In this document: positions 3,381 through 18,514 of the stretch, piece by piece
Layout of the letters: every line of letters begins with the position of its first letter
Position numbering within the stretch: position 1 is the stretch's first letter
DNA from: a virus
DNA: 30,025 nt
Direction: 5' to 3' (one strand)
IMG/VR virus record: IMGVR_UViG_3300042562_003270
Coordinates: 1-30,025 of that record
The notes under the pieces: model-generated
Told to the model about the DNA's origin: nothing
Seen by the model: only the letters and a program-made list of their open reading frames with translations
The model's database searches: none
Translations under genes and position numbers: made by a program

Positions 3381-3829
3381 ACGCAGTCGGTCTGGGCGAA
3401 AAGCGGACAGCTACCCATGCAACTGCGGGTTTGCCGGAAATCGCAAAAGCAGCCACTGCATCCATCTCCGCCAAGAACTGTTCCCATCGCGTCGGTTTGT
3501 TTTTCTTCGCATCGCGAAGATCGGGAAAGGCGGGCTAACTCGGCATCGGCTGGGCTCCTTGCACGGATGACCCAGTCTCCCAGATCATGCTGCAAGTGGC
3601 AGATTTTTCAGACGTCCCCTTTCATCTCGCCGTCCTCTCCTGGGTGGTTGCAGGGATCGCTGTGGATTCCACCAAGAAATAATGTCATCATTTTTGTCAT
3701 AGCTGGCACATTTTGGACTTTCCCATGCCCATTTAAGGTCATTTAGCTGTAGATTTTGACAAAAAATGCCAAATTGTGATAGTCGAAAATGGCCCCTATT
3801 TGGAAGTCATGGATTCAAGGGAGGCACCG
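3381..3829 (+). promoter_or_regulatory. Non-coding region with candidate promoter for the first XRE gene
   Basis: No credible gene is seen; the short open frames here lack composition or start signals. The last 150 bases are clearly A+T-richer than the surroundings. A TTGACA box at 3756-3761 is followed after 16 bases by GATAGT (3778-3783), a plausible -35/-10 pair. CATTTTTGTCA at 3689-3699 and TGACAAAAAATG at 3757-3768 form a spaced inverted repeat that overlaps the -35 box. That is the arrangement expected of an autoregulatory operator for the XRE protein encoded downstream. Promoter and operator are pattern-based inference. Confidence 0.5.
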
Positions 3830-4987
3830 ATGGCGTTCAGGGCAGATCTTCTCAAAAGGAAGCTCGAGGCGGAGGGTAAAAAGCCTGACCAACTCGCAGC
3901 ATTGATCAAGAAGCACAAGCGCACCGTACGTCGCTGGCTGGCTGGAACCAATCCGCCCAAGCCCAAGGACCTGGAAGCGATCGCTCGTGTCCTGAACTGC
4001 AAAGCCCAAGATTTCGATCCGTTCTTCGCCGACATGGGCTTGGGAGAGGTCTCGATTCAGGCGCACGTGTCTGCGGCTTCCCATAACGCCTACGAGTTGA
4101 TGCGCTGGCGTTACGGTGTCAGCCAGAAGCAGATCATGGAGCTCGCCCCCGTTCTCTTTGCGATCGTGGCGGCACACGCTCTCAAGGTGCCTGATCAGGA
4201 TGACGCGCTTGAGCGGGAGGCTTCGATGAATGGCCGCCCTAGCACGCAGACGCAGAGCGACGGGATCGACCGGCAGGCCAGCCAATCGAGAAAATGCTTT
4301 GGCCTCAAGTCGCTGGACCATAACCTCGGCCCTCGCAACCTGTTCGACGCCGCTGTTCAGCGACTGTCTGCTCAAGCCTCAGACTATGTCGATGCCAAAT
4401 GGTATGTCGGCGCCGCACCCGGAGATGTTCCAGGGGCGACGGGTTTTATCCCCGACACAGACTTCCTCGAAGTGATCACCGGCGGTGACTGGGCGCTGGT
4501 TGAGGCAATCGCCAAGGGGCGCATTCGTCTTTCAACTGTCCTTCAGGAAATCGGGGAGCGCAGGGAAGGTGCTTCGGTCGACGCTCTTGCCAGTGCCATC
4601 CGCCACGCGCATGACGCGCGGATTGAAGAGCAGCGCGAGGCCGGCCTCAAAAAGCTGAAGGCCTGGCGGGAATTCTATGCTGCGCGTCACAAGGAACTGG
4701 CTGAGGAATACGGCTCCCTCGTCAACCAACACTGCCATCAGGAAGGTTGGTATCCCAAGCATTACACTTTTGACGACCGCATCCAAAGCTGGGTGAACCC
4801 CATTCGGGAAGATCGGCACATCAACGAGGATACCTTGGTCGATTATCAACGAATGAAGGCTGCGAGAACTGAGGATGGGGGGATTATTCTCGGCCTACAG
4901 TTCCAGGATCCCGTCTATCGGCGCTTCCAAACTCTTCAGCATCACCGCGCCCAACTGAAAAAGCAATTCGAGGAGACTTGGTCGTGA
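3830..4987 (+). CDS. XRE-type HTH regulator with long C-terminal domain (module A)
   Basis: A 385-residue protein. The ATG at 3830 has a GGGAGG ribosome site 5 bases upstream; in-frame GTG and ATG codons further up (3776, 3809) are poorer and lie in the promoter region. Residues about 4-60 form an XRE/lambda-repressor-like HTH (LKRKLEAEGKKPDQLAAL, then KRTVRRWLAGTNPPKPKDLE and AIARVLNCKAQDF). Residues 81-120 (ASHNAYELMRWRYGVSQK and a LAPVLFAIVAAHAL helix) match the same positions of the second XRE protein at 12813. A later D-F-L-E-V-I-T-G-G-D segment matches that protein's S-D-L-Y-A-E-I-M-G-G-G-D. About residues 265-330 are a charged, probably coiled-coil segment. Its stop overlaps the next start (GTGA). 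It could be a TA-type antitoxin/regulator or a lysogeny regulator. The C-terminal function is unknown. Confidence 0.75.
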   Translation: MAFRADLLKRKLEAEGKKPDQLAALIKKHKRTVRRWLAGTNPPKPKDLEAIARVLNCKAQDFDPFFADMGLGEVSIQAHVSAASHNAYELMRWRYGVSQKQIMELAPVLFAIVAAHALKVPDQDDALEREASMNGRPSTQTQSDGIDRQASQSRKCFGLKSLDHNLGPRNLFDAAVQRLSAQASDYVDAKWYVGAAPGDVPGATGFIPDTDFLEVITGGDWALVEAIAKGRIRLSTVLQEIGERREGASVDALASAIRHAHDARIEEQREAGLKKLKAWREFYAARHKELAEEYGSLVNQHCHQEGWYPKHYTFDDRIQSWVNPIREDRHINEDTLVDYQRMKAARTEDGGIILGLQFQDPVYRRFQTLQHHRAQLKKQFEETWS

Positions 4988-5319
4988 CATCGATTTGCGA
5001 GAACGAGGCGCTCATGGTCAGCACGCACGCGGCGACTCGCATGGCCCAGCGGGGTATACGGCGCGCGATCCTTGACCTGGTGATCCTGCATGGGACTCCG
5101 GCGAAAGCCCAGAACGACTGCGAAGAATATATCCTTTCGGAACAGGCGGCTCGGTTTCTCGTCCACACCGGGTACGACCCGCAGACGATCACTGCCGCCA
5201 CTAAGGTACGGGCCATCGTGGATCCCTGCGGCACAATCGTGACCTGCTACCACAAACGGAACGGTCGTTTACGACCCTCCAGCCGAACATCACACCTGCG
5301 AAATACGAGACACAACTAA
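4984..5319 (+). CDS. DUF4258-like small protein (module A partner)
   Basis: A 111-residue protein. The GTG start at 4984 overlaps the regulator's stop (GTGA) and has GAGGAG 8 bases upstream; a TTG at 4978 sits too close to that site. It carries the hallmark of the DUF4258 family near the N-terminus, STHAATRMAQRGIRRAILDL, then a YILSEQAARFLV segment and a final strand ending TIVTCYHKRNGR. The family is a small alpha/beta fold with no assigned activity. The compact shape, the H-x3-R-x2-QRG motif and the coupling to an XRE regulator resemble type II toxin-antitoxin pairs, here with the regulator first. A second pair with the same order and overlap occurs at 12813-14263. A toxin role is inference; an accessory DNA- or RNA-binding role is also possible. 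Confidence 0.68.
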   Translation: MTSICENEALMVSTHAATRMAQRGIRRAILDLVILHGTPAKAQNDCEEYILSEQAARFLVHTGYDPQTITAATKVRAIVDPCGTIVTCYHKRNGRLRPSSRTSHLRNTRHN

Positions 5320-5419
5320 CCTCTGGTGGGTCTGCAGAACCGCTTTCGTTTGGTCGATAGGTCGGCCAAAGGCACCGCTGCGACCTTCTACCAAAATCTT
5401 TTTATCGAAAGGGACAAGC

Positions 5420-5917
5420 ATGCCTGCCACCATCCACCAATCCACGAAATTCGCCTATGCGCGCGAACAGTACTTTGCCGTCGCAAGCGGGCACACCCTG
5501 CTCCGCCTCACTCTTGGCGCGTGTGGCGGGCAACCCGGCGGCGCAATCAAGACGGCCACCGCGAGTGATTTTGGTGCAGAGCCTGTCTTTCGTGATCGGG
5601 AAGCGCTGACCAAAGCGATGCGTCGTGGCGTGCAGAACCTCGGTGGCAGAGCACAGGATGTGAACATCGAAATCGATGGCAGAGGCCGCCGGTTCGGGGA
5701 GATCGCATTGGCGGGATCGCGGGAGCAACTCATCGAAGCACTTTACCTGCTTGCCGAGCAAATGGAGGATCACCTTGGTCGATCATTGGATGGTGCTCAC
5801 GACAGCGGCTACAGCGATCTGCGCGAGCTTTACGATGACCTGTGCCATTCCGCTGGCGAACCAGTGTACCTGTCGGACGGTGTGTACTTGGGTTCTGATG
5901 GGCGCCTGTTCGAATGA
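5420..5917 (+). CDS. Unknown soluble protein downstream of module A
   Basis: A 165-residue protein. The ATG at 5420 has AAAGGGA about 5 bases upstream. No domain was recognised. The N-terminal part has a HTLLRLTLGACGGQPGG segment. The middle (about 50-80) contains REALTKAMRRGVQNLGGRA, and about 95-125 is a helical SREQLIEALYLLAEQMEDHL stretch. The C-terminus is acidic with repeated Tyr/Asp residues (about 135-165). No signal peptide or membrane segment is visible. It lies 100 bases after the DUF4258-like gene in the same orientation and may share its transcript. A weak hairpin with a T run follows at 6040. Function unknown. Confidence 0.62.
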   Translation: MPATIHQSTKFAYAREQYFAVASGHTLLRLTLGACGGQPGGAIKTATASDFGAEPVFRDREALTKAMRRGVQNLGGRAQDVNIEIDGRGRRFGEIALAGSREQLIEALYLLAEQMEDHLGRSLDGAHDSGYSDLRELYDDLCHSAGEPVYLSDGVYLGSDGRLFE

Positions 5918-6039
5918 CAACGCCGGCAAAAGCTCAACGCTTTCCTGGGCAGCCGAACCGAGAACATGGCCTTCATCTCCGTCTTATGCTCCGCACGTTG
6001 GACCGCACTAGATGCGGGCCGGTCGTGCTTGCCGAGTTA

Positions 6040-6064
6040 CTTGCCAATCCGGCAAGGCTTTTTG
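6040..6064 (+). terminator. Weak Rho-independent terminator candidate
   Basis: CTTGCC (6040-6045) and GGCAAG (6051-6056) form a 6-base-pair stem with a 5-base loop, followed by GCTTTTT. It lies about 120 bases after the 5420-5917 gene. The stem is short, so termination may be partial. The rest of 5918-6400 holds no gene I can support and no clear promoter boxes. Confidence 0.45.
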
Positions 6065-6400
6065 GAGGGAACAAACACGCGAACCGCCATACGGCAACGG
6101 CGTGCCACTGTGAGCCGCCAACTAGTTTTGCACTCGGTCCACCTTAGGCCAAACCCCAGTGCTCACCAAAACAAGCCGTATCTATGGCGACCGCCATCGC
6201 TCCGTCAATTTCCTATTAGCGTTACCAGAAAGGTTGTTCTCCTCGTCAGCCAAGGTTAGCGTCCAGAAAGTTGGTGAAGTGTCTTGCTTACCCCTATTTT
6301 GGCCCGAATTCAAAGGCGTGCGATACTAGGGTTTTTGTTGCGCAGAAGCCTGGGAACACTTTTAGCAAAAGGTGCAGTGCGCCAGCACAGGGGGGACAAG

Positions 6401-9145
6401 ATGGGAATGACGGCCGATCCAGTGGCTTTGACTTCGGAAAACTTCGGCATCCTGCTGCCGCTCTGGCCAGACCTGCACACTCTGGCAGACGAGGCAGAAC
6501 AGAATGCCGACAAGCTCCCTGATTTCTCTACGATCCGCCTGCGTGCCTTTGCGGAGGCCATGGTCTGCCACCTCTTCCGGCATCATGGCTTGCCACTGAA
6601 CAACAATGAGGCGCAGTTCGTCCGCTTGCAGCTGCTTCAGGACAAAGATCTGCTGGACAGGCGGGTTCTAGGCCTTTTTCACACCATCCGGAAACTGGGA
6701 AACATCGCAGCACACATCAAACGCCCAGTATTGATGGATGAAGCCCGCGATCTGGTCGATGATGCTCGGTCGCTTACTGCTTGGTTCTGCCTCCATATTC
6801 GACCCGATATTGACTGGAACGCGCAGCAGATTTCCTCGCCAACTCCGATTACGTCGTCTCGCGAGACCCCATGCGAGTCACATCCAGCTAGAGCGCGCGA
6901 GACCGGAGCCCAAGTGCTTGCCACTCGCACAGTGACCGGCACTAGCCCACAGGTCAGGCTGCCGAGGACACGGATGTCGCTTCGGGATATGTTCGAGGAA
7001 GAGCTCACGACTGACCAACAGAATTGCATCTCGGCGCTCGATGATTTTCTGTCAGACGACACCCAACGGGTGTTCCTGCTTAAGGGCTATGCGGGAACCG
7101 GAAAGACGTTCCTTGCCGGCGGCTTGGCCGAGTTTTTGCTTGCCCAAGGGCGGATGTTCTCGTTCGCCGCTCCAACGGGGCGGGCGGCCAAGGTGATCGC
7201 AAAGAAAACGGGGCAGTCAGCGAGTACAATCCACAACCTGATCTACACTTACAGCGACATGTCCGAGCATACCGAAGTTGATGACGATGGGTCGGCTACC
7301 TTCAAGATGATTGCCAAGGTCCGGAGTAACGAGGACCCTATCGATTCAGTTACCATCATCGACGAAGCTTCGCTCGTCTCGAATGTGTATTCCGAAAGCG
7401 AATTCTACCGGTCTGGCAGCGGACACCTGTTGCAGGACCTGATCGCGCACGTGGGCTCAACTCATGCAGGCAATGCACGCAAGATCATTTTCATTGGCGA
7501 CCCAGCGCAGCTGCCACCTGTCGGCATGTCCACCTCTCCAGCGCTCGACGCGGATTACCTGCGCCTGACGTTCGGGCTTGATGCCAACAGTTATGAGTTG
7601 ACCGAAATTGTCCGCCAGAAGGCAGACAGCGCGGTCATCCGCAATGTCATGCCCTTGCGTGAAGGCGTCGTCAGCGGTCAGTTCAGCAGCCTGTCCTTTG
7701 TATTCGACGATGATGTCATCCGTCTTCCCAAAGTCAGCGTCACACCGCTCTACATAAAGGTCCGCGAGGGTCGCGGCCCACACGCGCCGATCATTGTGAC
7801 CCCCTCGAATGCTGAGGCTGCCATTTTCAATCGCGCAATCCGGACGATGCTGTTTCCAGGTATGGCGACCGTTGCCGCCGGTGACGTCGTTATCGTTGCT
7901 GCCAATGGATTTTGCGGGCCACATTACGTTGCCAATGGTGAAATCCTGCGCATCGATACGGTTGAAACGGCTGTTGAGAGGCGGTCGATTCAATTGCTCC
8001 AAAAAATTGGTAATGGTGACATTTCGGAACCTGTGAATGTTGCGCTTAATTTCCGGGACGTCATGGTTGCCCTACCGCAATTGGATGGCGGCGATCTGAT
8101 CCTGAAGGCCAAGATCCTCGATGATTTTCTGCACGGCGACGATGCAAGTCTCGACTCGGCGCAGCAGCGCGCACTCTACGTTGATTTCCTTAAGCGCCAT
8201 AAGCATATCGACCGGAAGAAGAAGCGTGACGAGTTCCAGCTTGCACTACGTTCAGACCCGTATTTCAACGCGCTTCGCCTCCGGTTTGGTTATGCTATTA
8301 CCTGCCACAAGGCGCAGGGTGGCGAGTGGAGCCACGTGATCGTAAGTTGTGCGACCCGGCAGAATCCGCGTTCGTCAGATTACTTCCGTTGGCTTTACAC
8401 TGCGATGACCCGCACGAGCGGCAAACTCTATCTGGTCGATCCCCCGGAGATCCGGTTGCAACCGGCCGGGACCGGCTGGATCACACCATCTTCCGCCGAA
8501 ACGGCCGCGTCGGACGGAAATCAGGGGCCCAATGTCCAAGGCGTTCAACCCGTCCCGGGCGGGTCAACAGCCGAGGGGCTCTCGCCGCAGGCATTGTTCC
8601 GCCAGTGGCTGCGTGCTGAAATCCACAACCGGCTGGCTGACACAGGAATCGAGATCGAGGACATCGCCCACCACCAATATCGGGAGGCGTATTTCTTCAA
8701 GCGGGGCACCGATGCCCTCCGGATCGACATCGGCTACAAGGGAAACTGGACGATTTCAGGCATCACCTGTGCACGGGAAGAGCCGTTTGCGGAAGACGTG
8801 ATGGCGCACCTTGAAAGATTGATAGGGCAGAAACCCGGAAATGGTGGGTCGCATTCGGTCGCGAAACACGAACCAGACCGGCCCTTCCTCAGAGTCTTCC
8901 ATGATCGACTTTTGACTGCCCTGACTTCGAAGGGCATCAACGTGATCAACCTCAAGGAGCAGGCGTGGAGCCAGCGCTACGTTCTTGAACGCGGGTCGGA
9001 CTTGGTGACGGTGGACATTTTCTACAATGGCAGAGATCAGCTGACCAAATTCATGCCGGTCAACCCATCGCAAACCCCGACGGCATCGCTTGTCGATCTA
9101 CAGAACGATGTCGGATCCGTTCTGACCGTCGAGGTTCATCCGTGA
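6401..9145 (+). CDS. DUF4145-like / SF1B (RecD2-type) helicase with duplicated C-terminal domain
   Basis: A 914-residue protein. The ATG at 6401 follows GGGGGA with a 4-base gap; a frame open to 6284 lacks such a site. Residues about 20-150 resemble DUF4145, an all-helical domain often found at the N-terminus of restriction helicases (RLRAFAEAMVCHLF..., then LGLFHTIRKLGNIAAH). Residues about 205-690 form a superfamily 1 helicase: Walker A GYAGTGKT (229-236), Walker B IIDEAS (319-324), motif III GDPAQLPPVG (366-375), and UvrD_C_2-type motifs YAITCHKAQGGEW (about 631-643) and WLYTAMTRT (about 667). After a Pro/Gly-rich linker, two related domains follow at about 733-786 and 833-883; they share GI-x-I, a Gln, a Tyr, RG(T/S)D and DI-x-Y-(K/N)-G. 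Its stop overlaps the next gene's start. Likely an ATP-driven DNA translocase in a repair or defence role; substrate unknown. Confidence 0.82.
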   Translation: MGMTADPVALTSENFGILLPLWPDLHTLADEAEQNADKLPDFSTIRLRAFAEAMVCHLFRHHGLPLNNNEAQFVRLQLLQDKDLLDRRVLGLFHTIRKLGNIAAHIKRPVLMDEARDLVDDARSLTAWFCLHIRPDIDWNAQQISSPTPITSSRETPCESHPARARETGAQVLATRTVTGTSPQVRLPRTRMSLRDMFEEELTTDQQNCISALDDFLSDDTQRVFLLKGYAGTGKTFLAGGLAEFLLAQGRMFSFAAPTGRAAKVIAKKTGQSASTIHNLIYTYSDMSEHTEVDDDGSATFKMIAKVRSNEDPIDSVTIIDEASLVSNVYSESEFYRSGSGHLLQDLIAHVGSTHAGNARKIIFIGDPAQLPPVGMSTSPALDADYLRLTFGLDANSYELTEIVRQKADSAVIRNVMPLREGVVSGQFSSLSFVFDDDVIRLPKVSVTPLYIKVREGRGPHAPIIVTPSNAEAAIFNRAIRTMLFPGMATVAAGDVVIVAANGFCGPHYVANGEILRIDTVETAVERRSIQLLQKIGNGDISEPVNVALNFRDVMVALPQLDGGDLILKAKILDDFLHGDDASLDSAQQRALYVDFLKRHKHIDRKKKRDEFQLALRSDPYFNALRLRFGYAITCHKAQGGEWSHVIVSCATRQNPRSSDYFRWLYTAMTRTSGKLYLVDPPEIRLQPAGTGWITPSSAETAASDGNQGPNVQGVQPVPGGSTAEGLSPQALFRQWLRAEIHNRLADTGIEIEDIAHHQYREAYFFKRGTDALRIDIGYKGNWTISGITCAREEPFAEDVMAHLERLIGQKPGNGGSHSVAKHEPDRPFLRVFHDRLLTALTSKGINVINLKEQAWSQRYVLERGSDLVTVDIFYNGRDQLTKFMPVNPSQTPTASLVDLQNDVGSVLTVEVHP

Positions 9146-11106
9146 GCACGGCCAAGGAAGTGACCATTCTGCGTAAGGCGGGAAAACTTGACCTTGCATA
9201 CCAAATCTCGCTGGACCTAATTGCCGCACAGAATTCCGATGCTCGGGACCGCGCAGCTTACGCCTGGTGCCTCATTGCCCTCGTAAAACATCATGCCGCC
9301 GACAGCAGCCAGCAGAAGCTCTCCGATTATCTGGAACAATTGAAACGCTTCGAAGTGCCGGCGAACGACGACCTGCTTGCCGAACACCGCGGAAAAGCGC
9401 TCGCACTTGCGCAGCCCGATCGGCGCGCTGCGCTGGACGCACGTGGCCTAAGTAAGCAAGGCAAGCATGAAGAGGCTGCGCGTATCTACGCCGACCTGCA
9501 TACCAATGGCAAACTGGAGCCAGACGACCGCAAGTCGTGGGGCTGGGAGCTTTACCGGGTGATCAAAGCCGATCTTCAGGATAAGCAGGACGATGAACTT
9601 TCGCCCCCGGTTGTGCAACGGGTGAAGCGACAGTTGAACATCTATCTGAAGCTGAGCGCCGACGGACCAGATCTTTTGCACACCCTCATGCTGCAGCAGG
9701 CGCTGCGCCTAGCTAAAGGTGGCCACCTGAAGCTGCTTCCGTTTCTTCGCCTTTGGAACCCGGAGCAGTTCAGCGATGAGGATTTCGAAAGCCAAATAGG
9801 AAAGGATGGCAAGACGTATCCCTCGCTTGTTGAACGTACTATTCAGGCCGCGGCTTCTGAGGCGGCTGATAGCGACCGGTCGGATGATCGCAGTTTCATC
9901 CTGCCGCATGTTCAAACTGCAATGCAGCGTTTCCCCGAGAACATCTGGTTGAAGCTGAACTATGCCAAACTATTGCGGGGTATGGGGCGCATAGATGAAG
10001 CTCGTGCGCAAGCTATCGAGTTCGCCCGCGAGAAAGCCTCCGAGTTCTGGGCGTGGGATCTGGTTGGCGATCTGGTGCAGGATGACCCCGAGTTGCGGCT
10101 CTCCTGCTATGCAAAGGCGCTTAGTTGCTCCCAGGACGACGATTTCGTCGGCAAGGTTCGCCTCAAGCTGGCCACGCTCTTGGAGAAGTCCCACCCCAAC
10201 GAGGCCCGGTTCGAAATTGAACGCGTGATGTCTCATCGAACGCGAGCGGGATATCCAATCCCCCGCGAGGCACAGGCACTGTCGGAAAGGTTGGCTCCTA
10301 TCAGCCCAAAATCGACGGATATCACCTTCTACTCCCGGTTCAGTGATTCAGCCGAAGCGCTCCTATTCTCCCACCTTCCGTGGACCGACGCATCGCTCGG
10401 CGATCAGTTCACCATCGAGGGCCGGGATGGGCAGAAGCCCCGAAAGCGGCGGCGTATCTACCTTCGAACAAAGCAGTTCGCACTGGAGTTGAGCCTACCC
10501 GACAACCATGTCGACATCCGCGGCCTCAACGAGGGAGTGCCTCTCATCGTGCAACACGAGATGTCCAATACCGTTCCGGGGCGAGCGACAATCCACCGAA
10601 TTCGTTCCCGGCCAGATGGCACAGTGATGGACGTCGCACCCGAACAAATTGCCGTAATTGATCGCATAAACGATCAGAAATCGCTCATCCATGTGGTCGT
10701 TACCCGAGGCGTCGACTGCACCTGCCCGATTTCGCTTTACCCGGGAGAGCCGAGAGTGGGCAGAGCCGTCGCAGTCCGCCTGGCTCAACATCACGGCAGA
10801 ACCGGAATGCTCACGCGTATCATCGCCATTTCGGCTACCGATCAGCCTGTCTCAGCCGATATTCTTCGCGCATTCCGTGAAGCGACGAGAGTAAACGAAG
10901 CGGGCCTTGGCTTCACCGAGAGCGACATTTTCATCCCACCGCATATGGTGGCCGCGTCTAACATTGAAGCAGGGGACCTAGTCGAAGGCATAGCCATTGC
11001 CAGCTTTAACGAGAAACGAGGCACATGGGGAATGAAGGCGATTGAGGTCAAGTCTGTTGCGCGAAATCATCTCGGTTCTGGCAACGGCCACGACGATAAC
11101 ATTTAA
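9142..11106 (+). CDS. TPR-repeat protein with C-terminal OB/cold-shock-like domains, partner of the helicase
   Basis: A 654-residue protein starting at a GTG that overlaps the helicase stop (GTGA), so the two are made together. Helical repeats of TPR type are visible at about 1-50 (ILRKAGKLDLAYQISLDLI), 97-150 (GLSKQGKHEEAARIYADLH) and 255-350 (FPENIWLKLNYAKLLRGMGR and following). The C-terminal third (about 420-645) is strand-rich. Its last part, GLGFTESDIFIPPHMVAA then GDLVEGIAIASFNEKRGTWG (about 588-630), has the look of an OB/cold-shock nucleic-acid-binding fold, and another strand-rich segment lies at about 505-565. No catalytic motif was seen. The likely role is a scaffold or nucleic-acid sensor for the helicase. 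The OB call is by eye only. Confidence 0.72.
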   Translation: MSTAKEVTILRKAGKLDLAYQISLDLIAAQNSDARDRAAYAWCLIALVKHHAADSSQQKLSDYLEQLKRFEVPANDDLLAEHRGKALALAQPDRRAALDARGLSKQGKHEEAARIYADLHTNGKLEPDDRKSWGWELYRVIKADLQDKQDDELSPPVVQRVKRQLNIYLKLSADGPDLLHTLMLQQALRLAKGGHLKLLPFLRLWNPEQFSDEDFESQIGKDGKTYPSLVERTIQAAASEAADSDRSDDRSFILPHVQTAMQRFPENIWLKLNYAKLLRGMGRIDEARAQAIEFAREKASEFWAWDLVGDLVQDDPELRLSCYAKALSCSQDDDFVGKVRLKLATLLEKSHPNEARFEIERVMSHRTRAGYPIPREAQALSERLAPISPKSTDITFYSRFSDSAEALLFSHLPWTDASLGDQFTIEGRDGQKPRKRRRIYLRTKQFALELSLPDNHVDIRGLNEGVPLIVQHEMSNTVPGRATIHRIRSRPDGTVMDVAPEQIAVIDRINDQKSLIHVVVTRGVDCTCPISLYPGEPRVGRAVAVRLAQHHGRTGMLTRIIAISATDQPVSADILRAFREATRVNEAGLGFTESDIFIPPHMVAASNIEAGDLVEGIAIASFNEKRGTWGMKAIEVKSVARNHLGSGNGHDDNI

Positions 11107-11505
11107 CAACTTAGAACGGCGGAGCACACGCTCGCAATCACCTGGATCGGTGCTAAAGGTTCATACTCGCTCTGCAGCGCGCCAGACCAACGCAGTTGTC
11201 ATTCGAACCAGATACCGCGTCAATAACGCCATCAAGCACGCGCCACCGCCGGAAAATCGGCCTTCGATGAAGAAGGCGAGCTAACTTTCTGTAACCGTTT
11301 ATCTAAGGCGCGTGATAACATGGATGTGATGATCCTGGGCTTGGCACTCAACTGCCGGCGCTGGGTCGCTTAGGCTGTGGTGGAAAATTCGCAGGCGGAC
11401 TGCACTGTTCGTTCACCCCCGTCACGCTTCATGCTAACGTCGAGCTTGACCTGCATCGCCTCGAGGCCAGACCATTTCGCGAAACGCACTTCTATGGAGA
11501 TCCGC
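11107..11505 (+). other. Non-coding gap upstream of ssb
   Basis: About 400 bases with no credible gene. The longest plus-strand frames either lack ribosome sites or are 5' extensions of the ssb frame. No clear hairpin terminator and no confident -35/-10 pair were found, although a promoter for ssb probably lies here because the gap is long. Confidence 0.5.
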
Positions 11506-11994
11506 ATGGCCGGTTCCGTGAACAAGGTGATCATAATTGGCAATCTCGGCCAGGATCCGGAGGTCCGGAACTTCGCCAACGGCGGCAAGGTCGTGAACCT
11601 GCGCATCGCCACATCGGAGTCGTGGAAGGACAAGTCGACAGGGGAGCGCAAAGAGCGCACCGAGTGGCACAGTGTTGCCATCTTCAACGAGCCGCTTGGC
11701 AAGATTGCCGAGCAGTATCTGCGCAAGGGTTCGAAGGTCTACATCGAAGGCCAAATTGAAACCCGCAAATGGCAGGACCAGTCCGGTGCCGACCGCTACT
11801 CAACGGAGGTCGTGCTGCGCCAATATGGTGGCACGTTGGCTCTGCTAGACGGACGGTCTGGCGACAGTCAAGGAGAGCCGTACGGCAGCATCCCGTCCCA
11901 AGAAAATAGAGGTTATGTTCAGGAGCAGAGGCCTGACCCTAGGACATCCGAAACCCGCGCGAGTCCCGGCCTCGACGATGAAATTCCATTCTGA
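11506..11994 (+). CDS. ssb: Single-stranded DNA-binding protein
   Basis: A 162-residue protein of the bacterial SSB family. Residues 1-110 are the OB fold, opening with [18 protein letters not shown], then [20 protein letters not shown] and a [21 protein letters not shown] stretch. A short Gly/Gln/Pro-rich linker leads to the acidic tip LDDEIPF, which in this family recruits partner repair and replication proteins. The ATG at 11506 has GGAG 6 bases upstream; an ATG four codons earlier is less well placed. It is shorter than many chromosomal alphaproteobacterial SSBs because the linker is short. It could serve phage replication or act with the upstream helicase pair on single-stranded DNA. Confidence 0.93.
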
Positions 11995-12094
11995 TCGTTT
12001 AGGGGGTTGCGGCCAACTCGATTCCGGATTGAACGAACCCGCTGACGCGGGAGTGGTGTAGGTGTTGGCGGGAATGGCCTCCTGACGGGAAAGT

Positions 12095-12550
12095 TTGGTT
12101 GCTCAAGATCAACCTCTTGTAGGGAGACCACCTGCCCACGACGGCCCTTTGCCGCGGGGTCCTTGCGATGCCGATGCCAACCTGAACATCGATATCGGTT
12201 ATGAACTCCGCCCCGGCGGCTTCATGATCACCGACGAGGTGGCCGACAACTTCTTGGCAGAACTCTCAGCTTTTGCGACCCTGGCGTCAGGCCATCAAAA
12301 CCGCAGGTCCTCGGCCCGACTGCGCCAGATCAACGGACTGCGCGGATGCACCACGGTGACCGGCGGCACGAATTGCCTGACAGATTTTCACAAGACAGCA
12401 TCCAACTTGCGTACAGCTCCACGAAGGCTTCCGCGCTGTTGTCGGCAACGCCAGCGCCGAGAAGCGGAAGTGCGCCGCCGGACTCTCAGCTTCACTTCGC
12501 CCTGGCCCACAAACAACGGCAGGCCTCCGAAGCGATCGGACGACGAGTAG
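12095..12550 (+). pseudogene. Decayed third copy of the DUF4258-like small gene
   Basis: An open frame that begins only at a TTG and translates to a diverged copy of the protein at 13841. ELRPGGFMITDEVADNFLAE here matches ELRSGVFMMTDRVADEIMAE there, and TDFHKTASNLRTAPRR with a following Arg/Gln-rich tail matches TAFHKKAPHLRTDPRS and its tail. The N-terminal hallmark with the QRG motif has decayed to AHDGPLPRGPCDADAN. There is no good ribosome site and no intact XRE gene directly upstream, so this is best read as the remnant of an earlier pair. It may instead be a divergent functional gene using a rare start. Confidence 0.55.
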
Positions 12551-12676
12551 GTCGACATAGCAAGGCGCAGCCAGTTCCAGATTGCGCCAACGAATCACAC
12601 TCTGTTGGGTCGCCGCCCTCGAGAGTCCACAAAAGGTCTGGCGAAGTTTGCGGCGAATGCCCCAAGGTCCGCCACA

Positions 12677-12800
12677 AGTCCGTTAGCTCATCCTAAAACG
12701 GACTCTCCTTCCCTACCTTCATGAGGAAATGCAGGACATCTTCATTCTTTTCGGACCTATACTGCATCCTTAAAGTCCGCTTTAATATCCAAATCGGACT
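12677..12800 (+). promoter_or_regulatory. AGTCCG/CGGACT operator array and promoter upstream of second XRE gene
   Basis: The half-site AGTCCG and its reverse complement occur repeatedly just upstream of the XRE gene at 12813: AGTCCG at 12677 and CGGACT at 12699 (16 bases between), CGGACC at 12752, then AGTCCG at 12774 and CGGACT at 12795 (15 bases between). A TATACT hexamer at 12758-12763 could be the -10 box, which would place the operators on both sides of the start of transcription. The last half-site abuts the ribosome site AGGAGG. Such spaced inverted half-sites are typical of autorepression by a dimeric XRE protein. Binding by this protein is inferred. Confidence 0.6.
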
Positions 12801-12812
12801 CAGGAGGACAAA

Positions 12813-13844
12813 ATGCCGAAGCTAAACCCAAGTGCAATCAAGTCGCTCAGAAACAAGAAAGGCATGAGCCACAAGACGTTGGCAGAAAGGGCGAATATCT
12901 CGAGAAGCAATCTGATCGCGCTCGAAAAGCCAGCAGACACACTGCGTAGCGTACATGAACCCACATACGAAAAGCTGAAGAGGGCGCTCGGGGCAACCGA
13001 CCTGCAGATGCGCGGCGATGATCCGGTGACCGATCCACTGCCAGTGTCACATGTTGCCTTGCGAAGCAAAATTACCACGGTAGCGCAAATGAACTACGAC
13101 CTGGTCAACAAGAAGTACGGTGTGAATAGCGACCAGCTCGCCCAACTCGCCCCTCTGATGTTCGCGCTCCTCGTGGAAGACAGCTTTATGTGGCGGAAGG
13201 AGCAACTGGAACTGCGCAAAAGAGCCCGAGACCTAGCAAGCCAGCTCAGTGAAACCCAACACGAACCCGAAAGCCTTCGCTTTGAAATTGAGAGCGAGTG
13301 CATTCTGAAGGAGGAGGAGGCCATCGAAGCCCACGAAGTATTCACTCAGCCTCTGAACTCAGAGTGGATGCATGGTATTTTCGTTTCAGACCGGTTCACC
13401 GACTTCATTGCATCGAAGGTCCGCAAGGCAGGCTCGAACGTTCGGGCAGACCTTCGGATGGATTACTTTAATCCGCGGAATATTCTTGCGCCGGAGACGA
13501 AATATATAGCGGTTTCCGACCTTTATGCGGAAATCATGGGAGGGGGCGACCATATTGAAAAAGCAGGTTTTGCTTTGGCACTTTTGTCTGGCTTAGCGCG
13601 CCTACACGACGCGCCCGCTGACGTGCAGACTACGGCGGCGCTCCGTGCATGGGTTGGGGAGCGACTGGCTGCTTCTAGTGACGACCCCACGACCGCGGGG
13701 CTGTTTGCGCACATCGTCCAGAAGAAAGCATCATCCCAAAGCGACGGTCCCACATTCGGACTAGACGAAGATGGTTTCCCAACATGGTTCCAACTTCACG
13801 CCGGGGCAACATCGCAGGCGACCGCCGAAGGGGAAGTAAAATGA
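12813..13844 (+). CDS. XRE-type HTH regulator with long C-terminal domain (module B)
   Basis: A 343-residue protein with a textbook AGGAGG site 5 bases before the ATG. Residues about 6-62 are an XRE HTH: IKSLRNKKGMSHKTLAERAN, then ISRSNLIALEKP and a helix TYEKLKRALGATDLQ. Residues 86-125 (VAQMNYDLVNKKYGVNSDQL and LAPLMFALLVEDSF) align without gaps with residues 81-120 of the XRE protein at 3830, and the DLYAEIMGGGDHIEKA segment aligns with that protein's DFLEVITGGDWALVEA. About 130-175 is a charged probable coiled coil. The two proteins are therefore diverged paralogues along most of their length, not just in the HTH. Its stop overlaps the next start (ATGA). Likely regulator or antitoxin of module B. 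Confidence 0.78.
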   Translation: MPKLNPSAIKSLRNKKGMSHKTLAERANISRSNLIALEKPADTLRSVHEPTYEKLKRALGATDLQMRGDDPVTDPLPVSHVALRSKITTVAQMNYDLVNKKYGVNSDQLAQLAPLMFALLVEDSFMWRKEQLELRKRARDLASQLSETQHEPESLRFEIESECILKEEEAIEAHEVFTQPLNSEWMHGIFVSDRFTDFIASKVRKAGSNVRADLRMDYFNPRNILAPETKYIAVSDLYAEIMGGGDHIEKAGFALALLSGLARLHDAPADVQTTAALRAWVGERLAASSDDPTTAGLFAHIVQKKASSQSDGPTFGLDEDGFPTWFQLHAGATSQATAEGEVK

Positions 13845-14263
13845 CTGCAATCTCCTTGAAGCAAACGGCTCACAGCAAGGCGCGCATCCGCCAACGGGGG
13901 CTTCGTGAAGCCGACGCCGCCTTGGTCTTCGAATGGGGGGCAGAACTTCGGAGCGGGGTATTCATGATGACCGACAGAGTTGCCGACGAGATCATGGCAG
14001 AGCTATCTCATCTCAACCACAGGGATGGAGGCAGCGTCATAACTGACAACGCCCAGTTCCGGGCACGTTTGAAACGGCACATCGACGCTCTGCGACGCTG
14101 CGTCGTCGTAGCAGAAGGCGTTACACTTGTGACCGCATTTCACAAAAAGGCGCCCCACCTACGCACTGACCCGCGGAGTGACCCTCACTGCCGCCGCCGT
14201 CGGCAACGCTGTGAGTCTGAACGGCGGAAGCGCTCGTTCAATCCTGGGATGATCATCCCCTGA
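13841..14263 (+). CDS. DUF4258-like small protein (module B partner)
   Basis: A 140-residue, strongly basic protein whose ATG overlaps the regulator's stop (ATGA) and follows a GGGGAAG site. The N-terminal motif HSKARIRQRGLREADAALVF matches HAATRMAQRGIRRAILDLVI of the protein at 4984. A final strand GVTLVTAFHKKAP matches TIVTCYHKRNG there. Between them it carries an extra helical stretch, VADEIMAELSHLN and FRARLKRHIDALRRC. An Arg-rich C-terminus (CRRRRQRCESERRKR) suggests nucleic-acid contact. The pairing with an XRE regulator, the order and the overlap repeat module A. A toxin-like or effector role is inferred from this arrangement; no catalytic residue can be assigned. Confidence 0.68.
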   Translation: MTAISLKQTAHSKARIRQRGLREADAALVFEWGAELRSGVFMMTDRVADEIMAELSHLNHRDGGSVITDNAQFRARLKRHIDALRRCVVVAEGVTLVTAFHKKAPHLRTDPRSDPHCRRRRQRCESERRKRSFNPGMIIP

Positions 14264-14333
14264 GCAAACGTTCATGGTGCACCAGAGATGTCGGGCACCA
14301 CGATACCTTCCGTTCATTTTCACAGGGGCCGCC

Positions 14334-15332
14334 ATGACCCAATCTGCAGAAGCCTTTGTCAGCGCTTATCACGACACCCGCGGGTGGACGGTTATCGATG
14401 AGCATACCGTTCATGATATCGGGGATGGACTTGAGCAACCCATTCTTCACGTACAAGCACCCAGATCGTTGAAGGTTAAATGGACAACGATTAGTGCCTT
14501 GGAAGGTATCACTTGGGCAGAGCGTGCAGGCTACCATCATGGCGGTGAACCAAGCTGTGTGAAATCCGAGCGCCTGTCGCGTGATCGCTCGATAATTGGG
14601 CGCGGCGAGATGGACCGAGTCGTCACTGTCTTCAACCCTTCAGGTGAAAATATTCTTCACTTCCGTGAAATTGATCGGATCAAACTCGTCCCACGCGCCA
14701 CGTCGGCAGGGCCTAACAGCATTGTCACTGGCGATGAAGCACTGGGATACCTCTGGCTGCAAATCGAACCCACCCAGAAGCATGGGGAGCATCATCCTGT
14801 GGCTCTAGAACTTCACCTTCAAATTGATGAACATGTCTTTCAGGCGGCGTTTTCGAAACTCAAAGCGCAACCTGACCTTCAAGAAGCAAGTTTGTCGGTC
14901 ATGGTTAATTTCTTCGACTGCGGGCTCGAAACGATTTCTTGGTGCAACGAACCGGAATACGGGATTCTTCGCCGTGACGGTGATCCTTGGGTCAAGTGCC
15001 ACGCAGAGTTTAAAATGCTTCGTGTTGAATATGCACAGTCTCCACGCCTGCCTTACACTTGTCGAGGCTCTCGTCTGGATAACCTGTCTTCACAATTGGA
15101 AAATCAAGATAATTCTATTACGAAAAATAAAAATATCAAGGCCCTGTATGGAACGACAGCTTCAATCAAGGCGAGGCTAGGCTGGATAGTTGCCCTGATG
15201 GCTATCATCGCCTTACTCCTTCTCCAAGCGACCGAAACCCAGAGCGCTCTCAAGCCAAGAAACTATCGAACCATAACAGGATACCACCAGATTGGACTTG
15301 AAACGCAGCCTTTAAGCTTTGCTGCCAGCTAA
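14334..15332 (+). CDS. Unknown protein with a single C-terminal membrane helix
   Basis: A 332-residue protein. The ATG at 14334 is preferred (AGGGG a few bases upstream); a start at 14274 has no ribosome site. No family was recognised. The N-terminal 270 residues look like a strand-rich cytoplasmic domain (VTVFNPSGENILHFREIDRI, YLWLQIEPTQKHGEHH, and a VALELHLQIDEHVFQAAF stretch). A hydrophobic helix WIVALMAIIALLLLQAT at about 284-300 is followed by a short tail, consistent with a tail-anchored protein, orientation unknown. Base composition becomes more A+T-rich towards the 3' end. It starts 70 bases after the module B gene and could share its transcript. Confidence 0.62.
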   Translation: MTQSAEAFVSAYHDTRGWTVIDEHTVHDIGDGLEQPILHVQAPRSLKVKWTTISALEGITWAERAGYHHGGEPSCVKSERLSRDRSIIGRGEMDRVVTVFNPSGENILHFREIDRIKLVPRATSAGPNSIVTGDEALGYLWLQIEPTQKHGEHHPVALELHLQIDEHVFQAAFSKLKAQPDLQEASLSVMVNFFDCGLETISWCNEPEYGILRRDGDPWVKCHAEFKMLRVEYAQSPRLPYTCRGSRLDNLSSQLENQDNSITKNKNIKALYGTTASIKARLGWIVALMAIIALLLLQATETQSALKPRNYRTITGYHQIGLETQPLSFAAS

Positions 15333-15403
15333 GATGCTGCATCACAAGTGCTTCTGTCAGTAGGCGAGAACCTACTCGACCCAACAAATCAATATGGCGG
15401 ATA

Positions 15404-15886
15404 ATGCAGATGCGGACCATCCTCACAATTCTTATTCTTACCGCGACATCAGCCATTGCTGAGCCGGTTTTTGACGCCGTCGACTATTACGGTGACTGGT
15501 CGGTGTTTACGGATGGAGAAGCATGCTGGATAGGGACATTTTCTGAGATCCCCATGCGTGGAAACAATCCCACATCTCTTTACGTGACTTTTGAAAATGA
15601 TTACGATCAAGGAGAGCTTTCGGTCTATGATCCGATGCAATTTCATCAATCCACAATGATCGCACTAATAGTAAATGAAGTCATATACCAGCTGGACCAC
15701 AATCAAGAACTTCCAGAACATGCATTTAGTTATGACTTTGGCCTGATAAGCGTTCTTGGAGAGAACGAGACTGCAAACATTGTCTTTCCCAACAAAAGAG
15801 GGAGCTTTGTTAAATATAGGTTTTCCTTAATCGGCTTCCGAGAGGCAGTCAGCCACGCTCGTGCGCTATGCCAAGATCCCACTTGA
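15404..15886 (+). CDS. Exported IalB-like (invasion-associated locus B family) protein
   Basis: A 160-residue protein with a clear Sec signal peptide: MQMRTILTILILTATSAIA, with probable cleavage after AIA near residue 19. The mature protein opens with the IalB-family pattern, an aromatic-G-D-W segment (DYYGDWSVF, about 27-35) followed by a Cys (GEACWIGTF), and a second Cys near the C-terminus (RALCQD) that could pair with it. IalB-family proteins are periplasmic or surface proteins common in alphaproteobacteria and of mostly unknown role. The gene is visibly more A+T-rich than the phage structural genes. It lies alone between two non-coding stretches and looks like cargo rather than a phage function. 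Confidence 0.68.
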   Translation: MQMRTILTILILTATSAIAEPVFDAVDYYGDWSVFTDGEACWIGTFSEIPMRGNNPTSLYVTFENDYDQGELSVYDPMQFHQSTMIALIVNEVIYQLDHNQELPEHAFSYDFGLISVLGENETANIVFPNKRGSFVKYRFSLIGFREAVSHARALCQDPT

Positions 15887-15898
15887 TTATTCCATCCA

Positions 15899-16013
15899 AC
15901 GGCATTGCGTTCGCGTCCGTCGGCGGTCCATGTTCATTGATCGGCTGGGCTTTGGCGACCTAACCAATGAGTCGTGAACCACACTCTGCTGAGGGCCCAG
16001 CCATGAAATGCCG
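15899..16013. repeat. Nested inverted repeats downstream of the IalB-like gene
   Basis: ACGGCAT (15899-15905) pairs with ATGCCGT (16007-16013), and inside them GGCTGGGC (15943-15950) pairs with GCCCAGCC (15995-16002). A further AATTGTT...AACAATT pair lies at about 16018-16040. The nested arrangement could be a folded RNA, or the relic of an insertion-sequence end. No transposase is seen nearby. Confidence 0.4.
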
Positions 16014-16102
16014 TAGCAATTGTTGCCTAGAAAAACAATTAGCATCCCTCTTGCACAAAAGCATGGCAACTGTAACGCTGGCAGCCCAGAACTAGGATAA
16101 TT

Positions 16103-16714
16103 ATGGCAAGGACACGCACCATATCTATTTCCTTTTATTTTGCAGATAAGGGCATGGCTGCGCTTGCTCTGGCCACCATAATCAGCTTGACGGTCGGCGC
16201 CGCGTCCGCCCAGACAGCTTTGGATCGCGTGATTGCGGACTACCAGCAGCAGTGTGTCAGTGGGCAGGCCGACATACTGCCCGAGATGGATGCCGATCTG
16301 GACCCACCGCAAGCGATTGTCCTCAAGATAGATGACGACGCGATATACGAGATCAAAGTCACGCCAGAGGGCAAGATGGCGACGGTCGTCTTCACATCGT
16401 TTTCTTGTACTAACATCGGGTACGCGTGGTGTGGCTCTGGGGGCTGTGTTTCTTACCTGATCGTCGACGAACACGTTTTTGAGTGGGAAGGGGGCGGTCG
16501 CCCGATGTCGGTGGACGCGGGGGAAAGAACCCTCATAGTTTCGCCAGTTTCTGGCTTCAGTTGTACTGATAGTGAAGGAAGAGCGGGGTGGGGGGCATCT
16601 CCCTGCTATCGGATGATAATTTGGGACGAACAGTTGCGAACCTTCTGGTCTGAGCGAGCTGACATTAAGGTGCGCCCAGATCTCTCCGCCCGTCAGACCG
16701 ATGAGCAAAATTGA
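16103..16714 (+). CDS. Exported protein of unknown function
   Basis: A 203-residue protein with an N-terminal export signal: a basic start, then MAALALATIISLTVGAASAQ, with probable cleavage after ASA near residue 36. The real start may be the internal ATG at residue 18, which would give a standard-length signal peptide; no ribosome site decides between them. The mature part contains several cysteines (QQQCVS, FSCTNIGYAWCGSGGC, FSCTDSEG, SPCYRM), suggesting disulfides in the periplasm. No family was recognised. A long open frame on the opposite strand across the same bases is judged a shadow. Together with the IalB-like gene it makes a small group of exported cargo proteins. Confidence 0.6.
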   Translation: MARTRTISISFYFADKGMAALALATIISLTVGAASAQTALDRVIADYQQQCVSGQADILPEMDADLDPPQAIVLKIDDDAIYEIKVTPEGKMATVVFTSFSCTNIGYAWCGSGGCVSYLIVDEHVFEWEGGGRPMSVDAGERTLIVSPVSGFSCTDSEGRAGWGASPCYRMIIWDEQLRTFWSERADIKVRPDLSARQTDEQN

Positions 16715-17251
16715 AAGTGGGTTTTCATTCAAGGCGAGATCGGTCTTTGGTATCACCGATGAGATCTTATCCACCCCCCTCCGATGGTTCCTCCCGGGCC
16801 GCATTGGTATACGGGGGGGCTGAGCGCGGCATTTCGCTAGCGACTGGCTTTTTCACCGGGGAAGCCACCTGGAAGCCACTTGGCCTGACTCATGCCAATT
16901 CTCGACTCGAATTCAGGGGCTTAGGCGTTGGGCCTCTGACCAACGTGGATTCCACGGCGGAATCCATCGAAGCCACCACCACCGAAATCCACCAGGCTTA
17001 AAGCCACAGAAGGAAGCCATTGCCGAGCCGCTCTGACCGGAATCCTCGGAACATACTGATTCTACCTAAGAAAACCGATTGACATTTCTAGCCCCCTTGA
17101 CGTACCACTCAAACATCGAAGAAATGCGCCCGGAGGATACCCCTCTCGGGCGCTTTCGTTTTCACCGCTTCGCGGATCCCGCTCCTGCCGCTGGCACTGC
17201 CGTCGGCCAGCGCTCGCACTTCCGCCCTGCCCCACATCCGAGCCCCGCCTC
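16715..17251 (+). other. Non-coding gap before the methyltransferase gene
   Basis: About 540 bases with no gene I can support; a 96-codon frame from a TTG at 16711 has no ribosome site and unconvincing composition. An 8-base hairpin TGGATTCC/GGAATCCA lies at 16946-16966 with a 5-base loop and no T run, so it may be an operator. The motif GGAAGCCA recurs several times between about 16859 and 17020. Confidence 0.45.
17126..17164 (+). terminator. Hairpin with T-rich tail upstream of the methyltransferase gene
   Basis: GCGCCCG (17126-17132) pairs with CGGGCGC (17147-17153), and the GGAGG that follows can extend the stem imperfectly. The tail reads TTTCGTTTTC. It would close transcription from the accessory region before the 17252 gene. 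Confidence 0.6.
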
Positions 17252-18514
17252 ATGAACCTCGTCTTCGCGCCGAGCCAGATCGAAACCTGGCCGATCAACC
17301 GGCTGCGCCCCTATGTCCGCAACGCCAAGATGCATGGCGACGAACAGGTGGCGAAGATCGCCGCCAGTATGGCCAAGTTCGGCTGGACCGTGCCGTGTCT
17401 GGTGGCTGACGACGGCGAGTTGATTGCGGGTCACGGCAGGGTGATGGCCGCCACCTTGCTCGGCCTAAGCGATGTGCCGGTGATCCGGCTCGGTCATCTC
17501 GACGAGGCGGAACGCCGTGCCTATCGCATCGCCGACAACAAGCTGACCGAGATGGGCGACTGGGATGAGGCCGTGCTGCGCGACGAGATCGCGGGACTCT
17601 TGGCCGACGATTTCGACCTGACGTTGCTCGGCATCAGCGACGATGATCTCGACGCGCTCCTACGCGACCCCGAGGCGCTGAGCGGTGACGGTCCTGTCGA
17701 GGGTGAGGACGAGGTTCCTGACCTGCCGATCACCCCCGTGTCTATGACGGGCGATCTCTGGCACTTGGGCGCGCACCGACTGATCTGCGGCGACAGCACG
17801 GCGGCCCACGTGATCGGGCGGCTGCTGGGTGACGTAAAGCCGATGCTGATGGTCACCGACCCTCCCTATGGCGTGGAATACGATCCCTCCTGGCGCAACC
17901 AGGCGGGCGCGGCCAAGACCAAACGCACCGGCAAGGTGCTAAACGACGACCGCGCTGACTGGCGTGAGGCTTGGGCGCTGTTCCCTGGAGATGTCGCCTA
18001 TGTCTGGCACGGGGCGCTACATGCGGCCACCGTGGCAGAGAGCCTGACCACCGCAGGCTTTGCCATCCGGTCGCAGATCATCTGGGCAAAAGACCGCCTC
18101 GTTCTCAGCCGCGGCGATTATCACTGGCAGCACGAACCCTGCTGGTACGCCGTGCGCGCCAAGGGCAAGGGCCATTGGGCGGGCGACCGCAAGCAGACGA
18201 CGCTGTGGCAGATCGCGAACAAGGACCAGGACGCGCAAACCGTTCACGCCACCCAGAAACCGGTTGAATGCATGCGCCGCCCGATCCTGAACAACTCCAG
18301 CCCCGGGCAGGCGGTCTACGAGCCCTTCATGGGATCGGGCACCACGTTGATCGCCGCGGAGACTACTGGCCGTGTCTGCCTCGGCGTCGAATTGAACCCG
18401 GCTTATATCGATGTTGCCATCGAGCGCTGGCAGTCCTTCACCGACACAGAGGCAACGCTGGCCGAAACTGGTGAGACCTTTGGATCACTGAAGGCGAAAA
18501 GGCTGGCAGCATGA
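17252..18514 (+). CDS. ParB-like nuclease / N6-adenine DNA methyltransferase fusion
   Basis: A 420-residue protein of the phage 'ParB N-terminal plus DNA modification methylase' type. Residues about 10-95 form the ParB/Srx-like domain (INRLRPYVRNAKMHGDEQVA, then ELIAGHGRVMAATLLGL). The methyltransferase follows with its catalytic DPPYGVEY motif at 203-210 and the S-adenosylmethionine-binding FMGSGTT motif at 359-365. That order (catalytic first) fits the beta class. In phages such enzymes methylate adenines in phage DNA, most likely to evade host restriction. No restriction partner is seen next to it. The 5' side carries no strong ribosome site. Its stop overlaps the next gene's start (ATGA). 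Confidence 0.92.
   Translation: MNLVFAPSQIETWPINRLRPYVRNAKMHGDEQVAKIAASMAKFGWTVPCLVADDGELIAGHGRVMAATLLGLSDVPVIRLGHLDEAERRAYRIADNKLTEMGDWDEAVLRDEIAGLLADDFDLTLLGISDDDLDALLRDPEALSGDGPVEGEDEVPDLPITPVSMTGDLWHLGAHRLICGDSTAAHVIGRLLGDVKPMLMVTDPPYGVEYDPSWRNQAGAAKTKRTGKVLNDDRADWREAWALFPGDVAYVWHGALHAATVAESLTTAGFAIRSQIIWAKDRLVLSRGDYHWQHEPCWYAVRAKGKGHWAGDRKQTTLWQIANKDQDAQTVHATQKPVECMRRPILNNSSPGQAVYEPFMGSGTTLIAAETTGRVCLGVELNPAYIDVAIERWQSFTDTEATLAETGETFGSLKAKRLAA

Follow-up and report, generated by a model that had tools for sequence, protein, structure and literature searches.

Organization of the locus

The window, that is, the whole stretch of DNA analysed here, comprises positions 1 to 30,025 of the virus record IMGVR_UViG_3300042562_003270 on one strand, and all positions given are window coordinates. 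It carries genes for an O-like replication protein, SSB, a ParB-methyltransferase, terminase, portal, protease and major head protein. The virus record and these replication, packaging and head genes confirm the phage setting claimed in the original prediction. Two overlapping genes encode a helicase and its partner, and a module of three genes precedes them (Table 1).

Table 1 Features of the locus in window coordinates
Feature	Position	Strand	Evidence or remark
Hypervariable cargo slot of the phage lineage, holding the cassette	3381..16710	.	Between g2700 and g16711/ParB-methyltransferase
Promoter/operator-like block TTGACAAAAAATGCCAAAT at the left cassette edge, just before the HTH gene	3756..3774	+	Conserved, TTGACA-type
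XRE-type HTH protein, 403 aa, module gene 1	3776..4987	+	HTH_3 E 1e-8
DUF4258-like protein, 113 aa	4978..5319	+	DUF4258 E 6e-4, below curated cut-off; conserved in L007, L009, L010 and L214
165-aa protein, no known fold, module gene 3	5420..5917	+	63-93% identical copies in L007, L009, L010 and L214
Predicted TOTE effector protein, 914 aa (PDC-M16A): HEPN-like front, SF1B helicase, two TBP-like domains	6401..9145	+	Pfam, PADLOC, homologue alignment
Predicted HEPN-fold (DUF4145-like) domain, residues 19-137	6455..6811	+	R97 and H105 conserved
SF1 Dda/RecD2-type helicase core, residues 201-679	7001..8437	+	Walker A K235, Walker B D321/E322
TBP-TOTE repeat 1, residues 728-810	8582..8830	+	Predicted helix-4 strands-helix
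TBP-TOTE repeat 2, residues 829-913	8885..9139	+	Predicted helix-4 strands-helix
Predicted TOTE TPR/OB partner, 654 aa (PDC-M16B)	9142..11106	+	Pfam, PADLOC, structure model
DUF7017, residues 268-404, closing part of the TPR-type solenoid	9943..10353	+	Pfam, model
Two S1/cold-shock (OB) domains, residues 496-559 and 577-636	10627..11049	+	Pfam; structure model poor here

The helicase reading frame is open from 6284, and the ATG at 6401 gives the 914-residue protein. This start codon has a purine-rich stretch upstream and agrees with the starts of the closest homologues. The partner starts with a GTG that overlaps the helicase stop codon (9143–9145) by 4 bp.

The helicase and its partner

The motor of the helicase is matched by the Pfam families AAA_30 (E 7e-23) and UvrD_C_2 (E 7e-18). 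K235, D321/E322, the GDxAQLPP motif and the helicase motifs show no variation among the 16 homologues. These matches and motifs bear out the prediction of a 914-residue RecD2-type SF1 helicase. The nearest solved motor structure is T4 Dda (Foldseek), RecD2 and Dda are nearest by sequence, and phrog_325, annotated 'Dda-like helicase', matches the protein. In an AlphaFold model built from seven sequences, confidence is good over the front and fair over the repeats, but poor over the motor (mean pLDDT 53), so that the comparison of the motor fold rests on Foldseek and sequence. Judged in this way, the motor is Dda/RecD2-like.

The N-terminus had been described as DUF4145-like. Its Pfam match (22.6 bits) is just below the curated cut-off (23.1), and the predicted fold supports the description. 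The model of residues 19–137 (pLDDT about 70–92) resembles the HEPN structure 2hsb (Z 13.6, rmsd 2.4 over 116 residues), followed by several HepT and Csm6 HEPN domains at Z 9–11. The HEPN families described in the literature include DUF4145, which often has an Rx4-6H RNase motif and is present on restriction helicases (PMC3710099). The model indicates that the front probably adopts a HEPN-like fold, of the RNase superfamily, a point that goes beyond the earlier reading.

The front is poorly conserved overall compared with the invariant residues of the motor (16 homologues). Nevertheless, every one of the 15 homologues with the front domain has R97, N101 and H105, although identity around these residues is low. 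The spacing between R97 and H105 is seven residues, compared with four to six in the published HEPN motif. One member of the alignment, L056, is without the HEPN domain, and most members keep it. The conservation of R97 and H105 makes HEPN catalysis plausible, yet the spacing is seven; this spacing and the member without the domain leave RNase activity uncertain. A search for a DNase domain found none.

The C-terminus had been predicted to contain two copies of an unrecognized domain of ~50 residues. The duplication is real, as the profile of repeat 1 aligns with that of repeat 2 (probability 98.8, E 6e-16), but the domain is a recognized one. Two stretches of the tail match PF22721 (TBP-TOTE; E 2e-32), which bears the Pfam title 'TATA-binding-like protein domain of the TOTE conflict systems'. 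The repeats are predicted to be TBP-like on this assignment. Comparison of the repeat models with structures gives no direct match to TBP structures. The models come structurally closest to KA1, appendage and cystatin-like domains (Z 5–6), and this resemblance may reflect a shared general arrangement only.

The partner is matched by DUF7017 (E 2e-40), S1CSD-TOTE-1 (E 3e-17) and S1CSD-TOTE-2 (E 8e-18), both S1CSD matches being above cut-off, and weakly by TPR_19 (E 3e-4). Residues 1–388 are modelled as a TPR-type solenoid, which is followed by the two S1/CSD domains. The 4-bp overlap, the S1CSD matches and the solenoid model agree with the description of an overlapping 654-residue TPR protein with OB/cold-shock-like domains.

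Assignment of the pair

TOTE stands for TPR, OB, TBP and Effector, as given in PMC12458937, which cites Aravind et al. 2022. All these parts are found in the pair: a TPR-type protein with DUF7017, the OB domains of the S1/CSD type, tandem TBP-TOTE domains and a helicase effector. In PADLOC, the helicase matches PDC-M16A (E 0) and the partner PDC-M16B (E 5e-248), near full length and in adjacent genes. The original prediction could find no named defence system for the pair; the TOTE domains of Pfam and the PDC-M16A/B matches now supply one. On sequence grounds, the pair is a TOTE-type system, corresponding to the candidate PDC-M16. PADLOC uses PDC for a putative defence candidate found via guilt-by-embedding, and most such candidates are not validated (PMC12988326). 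Among the papers searched, none deals with PDC-M16 or DUF7017, and 'TOTE' appears in PMC12458937 only. As far as we found, TOTE/PDC-M16 has so far been predicted from genomes only.

Distribution of the pair

The check proposed with the original prediction, co-occurrence of the two genes across genomes, gives a positive result. Homologous pairs, adjoining and in the same gene order, are found in phages, conjugative plasmids and chromosomes, and the pairwise identities of helicase and partner correlate (r 0.96, permutation p 1e-4). We searched 398 Pseudomonadota genomes, consisting of the genome at the centre of the sample, included by construction, and 397 others. DUF7017 is strong in the centre genome and three others, and the identical four have tandem TBP-TOTE domains. 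A fifth genome has one TBP-TOTE match on a 3-kb contig, with the start of a TPR gene after it. Among 395 genomes of the centre's family, the full-length partner is found in the centre genome alone. The pair is sporadic and co-inherited, indicating that it is not housekeeping in the sampled Pseudomonadota (4/398; 1/395 in the family). A fixed housekeeping repair operon in relatives, the finding that had been named as contrary to a defence system, is not what these genomes contain.

In L050 the neighbours of the pair are HEC-05/PDC-M55C, GajB-like and SNF2 genes, in L006 the neighbour is PDC-S06, and at other loci DUF262 proteins lie beside the pair. A second phage with the pair (L049) has a terminase and a portal of another family. 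Part of the partner gene survives in a genome of the same family as the centre genome (L055:8207-8734), where the C-terminal S1/CSD region is broken and interrupted by an in-frame stop.

Short forms without the HEPN front are found in L056 and L216. In L056 (G296:C2:280000-297000), the short pair adjoins phage tail tape-measure and tube genes, and phage carriage may accordingly have arisen more than once. L216 (MT835724.1 1445-22872) is filed as 'Bacteriophage sp.', UNVERIFIED, and holds a short TOTE pair. It is a gut scaffold of Bacteroidota-like DNA, in which the short pair lies, by eye, among genes of housekeeping or general-metabolism type. Its neighbours, again by eye, are ABC transporter, 2-oxoacid oxidoreductase-like and efflux-like genes, and it reads as a piece of bacterial chromosome. 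We left MT835724 out of the count of phages with both genes, as it appears to be bacterial chromosome.

The cassette and its upstream module

At the DNA level, an Actibacterium contig (L007) and two conjugative plasmids (L009 and L010) resemble the window from 3752/3757 to 11069 and nowhere outside these limits. The shared stretch is a 7.3-kb cassette with sharp edges, interrupted in L010 within the HTH gene. A search for inverted repeats at the cassette edges found none. Other relatives share just the pair and its leader, from ~6265, or from 6491 in the case of L049. The three upstream genes are part of the mobile cassette, a feature missed in the earlier reading.

The block TTGACAAAAAATGCCAAAT, with T or G as its first base, starts the module in L007, L009, L010 and L214; 0.05 chance matches are expected in the window. 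The HTH copies in these four loci are 58–79% identical. DUF4258 is a toxin family of the RelE/ParE superfamily with a BECR fold and with its target unknown (PMC11980606). In the window and in L007, L009 and L010 the module precedes the pair, and in a set of 72,556 plasmids the HTH and 165-aa genes are found in two plasmids only, both directly before a TOTE pair. In L214 (IMGVR_UViG_2695420316_000008, 6902–11254), the module genes are 79–95% identical and are followed by a NERD-UvrD gene, not by TOTE. SIR2 and HerA genes are nearby on the other strand, and the far-side genes are those beside TOTE in L048 and L051, as compared over the first residues of the reading frames. The NERD-UvrD gene and the flank genes common to L048 and L051 make the module look exchangeable between effectors at one hotspot.

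Its occurrence before both TOTE and NERD-UvrD suggests a control or toxin-antitoxin module that can be exchanged. We found no description of it upstream of the pair, the founding TOTE review being represented here by a paper that cites it. RosmerTA was considered for the HTH gene and rejected, as the RmrA match is weak and covers HTH residues 20–94 only, and Pfam gives no ImmA protease domain.

The cargo slot of the phage lineage

The genes g1301, O-like protein, g2700, g16711, methyltransferase and TerS/TerL are common, in varying combinations, to ~150 related phage loci. The helicase, partner, HTH and 165-aa genes are found in none of these loci. The slot between g2700 and g16711/methyltransferase is variable: 78 closed slots measure 131 to 9812 bp with a median of 6348, in a count that some contigs enter via two loci and whose upper size is bounded by 10-kb flanks. 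Six of 10 randomly drawn largest slot-cargo proteins match PADLOC at E 1e-20 or better; they are type III restriction enzymes (two), type I (two), AriA (PARIS) and PDC-S48/DEDDh. A larger sample of 93 cargo proteins contains mainly type I specificity and methylation subunits and type III methyltransferases. The slot in this phage lineage is a defence hotspot, with TOTE as one cargo among others.

The contents of the slot across the lineage (loci L057–L213) are a possible source of further defence genes. In the window, the slot also holds a second accessory block (12095–16804). Local alignment gives a weak match between its HTH protein (12813–13844) and the cassette HTH proteins of the homologous loci. 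The reading frames of the block at 13784, 14274 and 15404 have no Pfam, PHROGs or PADLOC match where tested. Adjoining the slot, a ParB-like domain is fused to a DNA methyltransferase (17252–18514); this phage gene is strongly conserved, being 76–90% identical in most relatives.

Proposed function and alternatives

We read the pair as a defence system on the basis of its domain matches, the PADLOC candidate PDC-M16, the pairing, its mobility and its defence-rich surroundings. It is likely that a temperate phage of Rhodobacterales-type bacteria carries the pair as cargo and that the pair serves in anti-phage defence. The original reading was of an anti-phage or DNA-processing system that could be matched to no named one. 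Its core, a motor co-inherited with a scaffold and nucleic-acid-binding partner in a defence-like setting, stands, and the lack of a match does not.

The steps of the mechanism are less certain than the defence function, and we favour no single mechanism to the same degree. The TPR/S1-CSD protein and the TBP-like repeats would recognize foreign nucleic acid in the form of single strands, RNA–DNA hybrids, or replication or transcription intermediates. The hybrid substrate is proposed by analogy with the TBP-like domain of RNase HIII, which binds RNA–DNA hybrids, and with the HEPN–TBP fusions of some RNase LS relatives (PMC3710099). The Dda-like motor would be loaded at the recognized nucleic acid and move on ATP. 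In members that have it, the HEPN front would cleave phage RNA, or the cell's own RNA in an abortive response; in the other members the motor would act alone. The HTH/DUF4258/165-aa module would control or guard expression in a subset of loci. The phage would benefit in that its lysogen resists competing phages.

Two alternatives concern sub-steps and are compatible with the defence reading, so the likelihoods that we attach to them are not shares of one whole. Defence could operate at the DNA level, with the TBP and OB domains binding foreign DNA or forks, the helicase stripping or stalling replication and the HEPN domain being an inactive interaction domain. The non-canonical Rx7H spacing, the existence of the HEPN-less L056 member and the poor conservation of the front beside an invariant motor are consistent with this proposal, but most members retain the domain, and its three residues are kept throughout amid low identity. 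We regard DNA-level defence as a distinct possibility, while leaning against it. In addition, the three upstream genes could be an independent toxin-antitoxin module that hitchhikes outside the TOTE system. The NERD-UvrD gene after the same three genes in L214 and the many TOTE pairs without the module (L003, L004, L005, L006 and L049) argue for hitchhiking. However, among the plasmids its HTH and 165-aa genes are seen only directly before a TOTE pair, and its two known partners, TOTE and NERD-UvrD, are effectors of defence type, a pattern that points to control more than to coincidence. The hitchhiking proposal falls somewhat short of an even chance.

Two further alternatives would replace the defence function. 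A phage could use a Dda-like helicase in its own replication, and the pair might be a replication or recombination helper, as the Dda-like motor, the phrog_325 match and the phage SSB gene downstream (11377–11994) would allow. But neither gene is found in the ~150 related phage loci, for which reason we reject phage replication as the main reading, and the 4.6-kb pair also exists apart from phage replication genes, on conjugative plasmids and in clusters on chromosomes. A helper function is very unlikely. Still more improbable is a host DNA-repair or housekeeping operon taken up by the phage. The short form amid general metabolism genes in the L216 gut scaffold fits such an operon; against it, the full-length or strong form is found in ~1% or less of both the Pseudomonadota and the Rhodobacterales family genomes sampled, and the pairs here are mostly on mobile elements. 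The sporadic occurrence in the 398- and 395-genome samples leads us to reject it for Pseudomonadota.

Returning to defence by the pair, we also put forward a more specific model, which is speculative and rather unlikely as a whole. The HTH/DUF4258/165-aa genes would be a general, swappable control or fail-safe module placed before TOTE and NERD-UvrD, and the TOTE effector would be a Dda-driven HEPN RNase with TBP-like readers. If true, the phage would carry an ATP-driven immune machine that targets RNA/DNA hybrids. If the exchangeable module is real, it would add a new case of modular control over immune systems. WYL-type regulators are known upstream of other defence systems, and their role would be comparable. 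The window combines a natural cassette that is compact and clearly bounded, a HEPN–motor–TBP architecture open to experiment, and a phage family with a defence-hotspot slot.

Comparison with known systems

The four named parts of TOTE (Aravind et al. 2022), compared through the citing paper and Pfam, match the pair. PDC-M16 is a two-gene candidate, whereas in the window, L007, L009 and L010 the three-gene module lies upstream of the pair; in L214, the fifth locus, the module precedes an effector other than PDC-M16.

TALON (PMC12458937) has TPR-CSD and TBP components in common with the pair. However, TALON uses the SF2 helicase YprA and a NERD nuclease, whereas in the pair the motor is of the SF1 Dda type and has TBP repeats fused to it. 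We reject identity with TALON, since the motor is SF1 and no NERD gene lies beside the pair.

RnlA (RNase LS) shares the HEPN fold, with RnlA structures at Z 7 to 8 against the front model, and in some relatives of RNase LS a HEPN domain and a TBP-like domain are joined in one protein (PMC3710099). RnlA is without a helicase and has the antitoxin RnlB, whereas no RnlB-like gene is identified at the pair. The SF1B helicases T4 Dda and RecD2 share the motor fold and motifs, but have neither the HEPN front nor the TBP tail, both of which are present in the window helicase.
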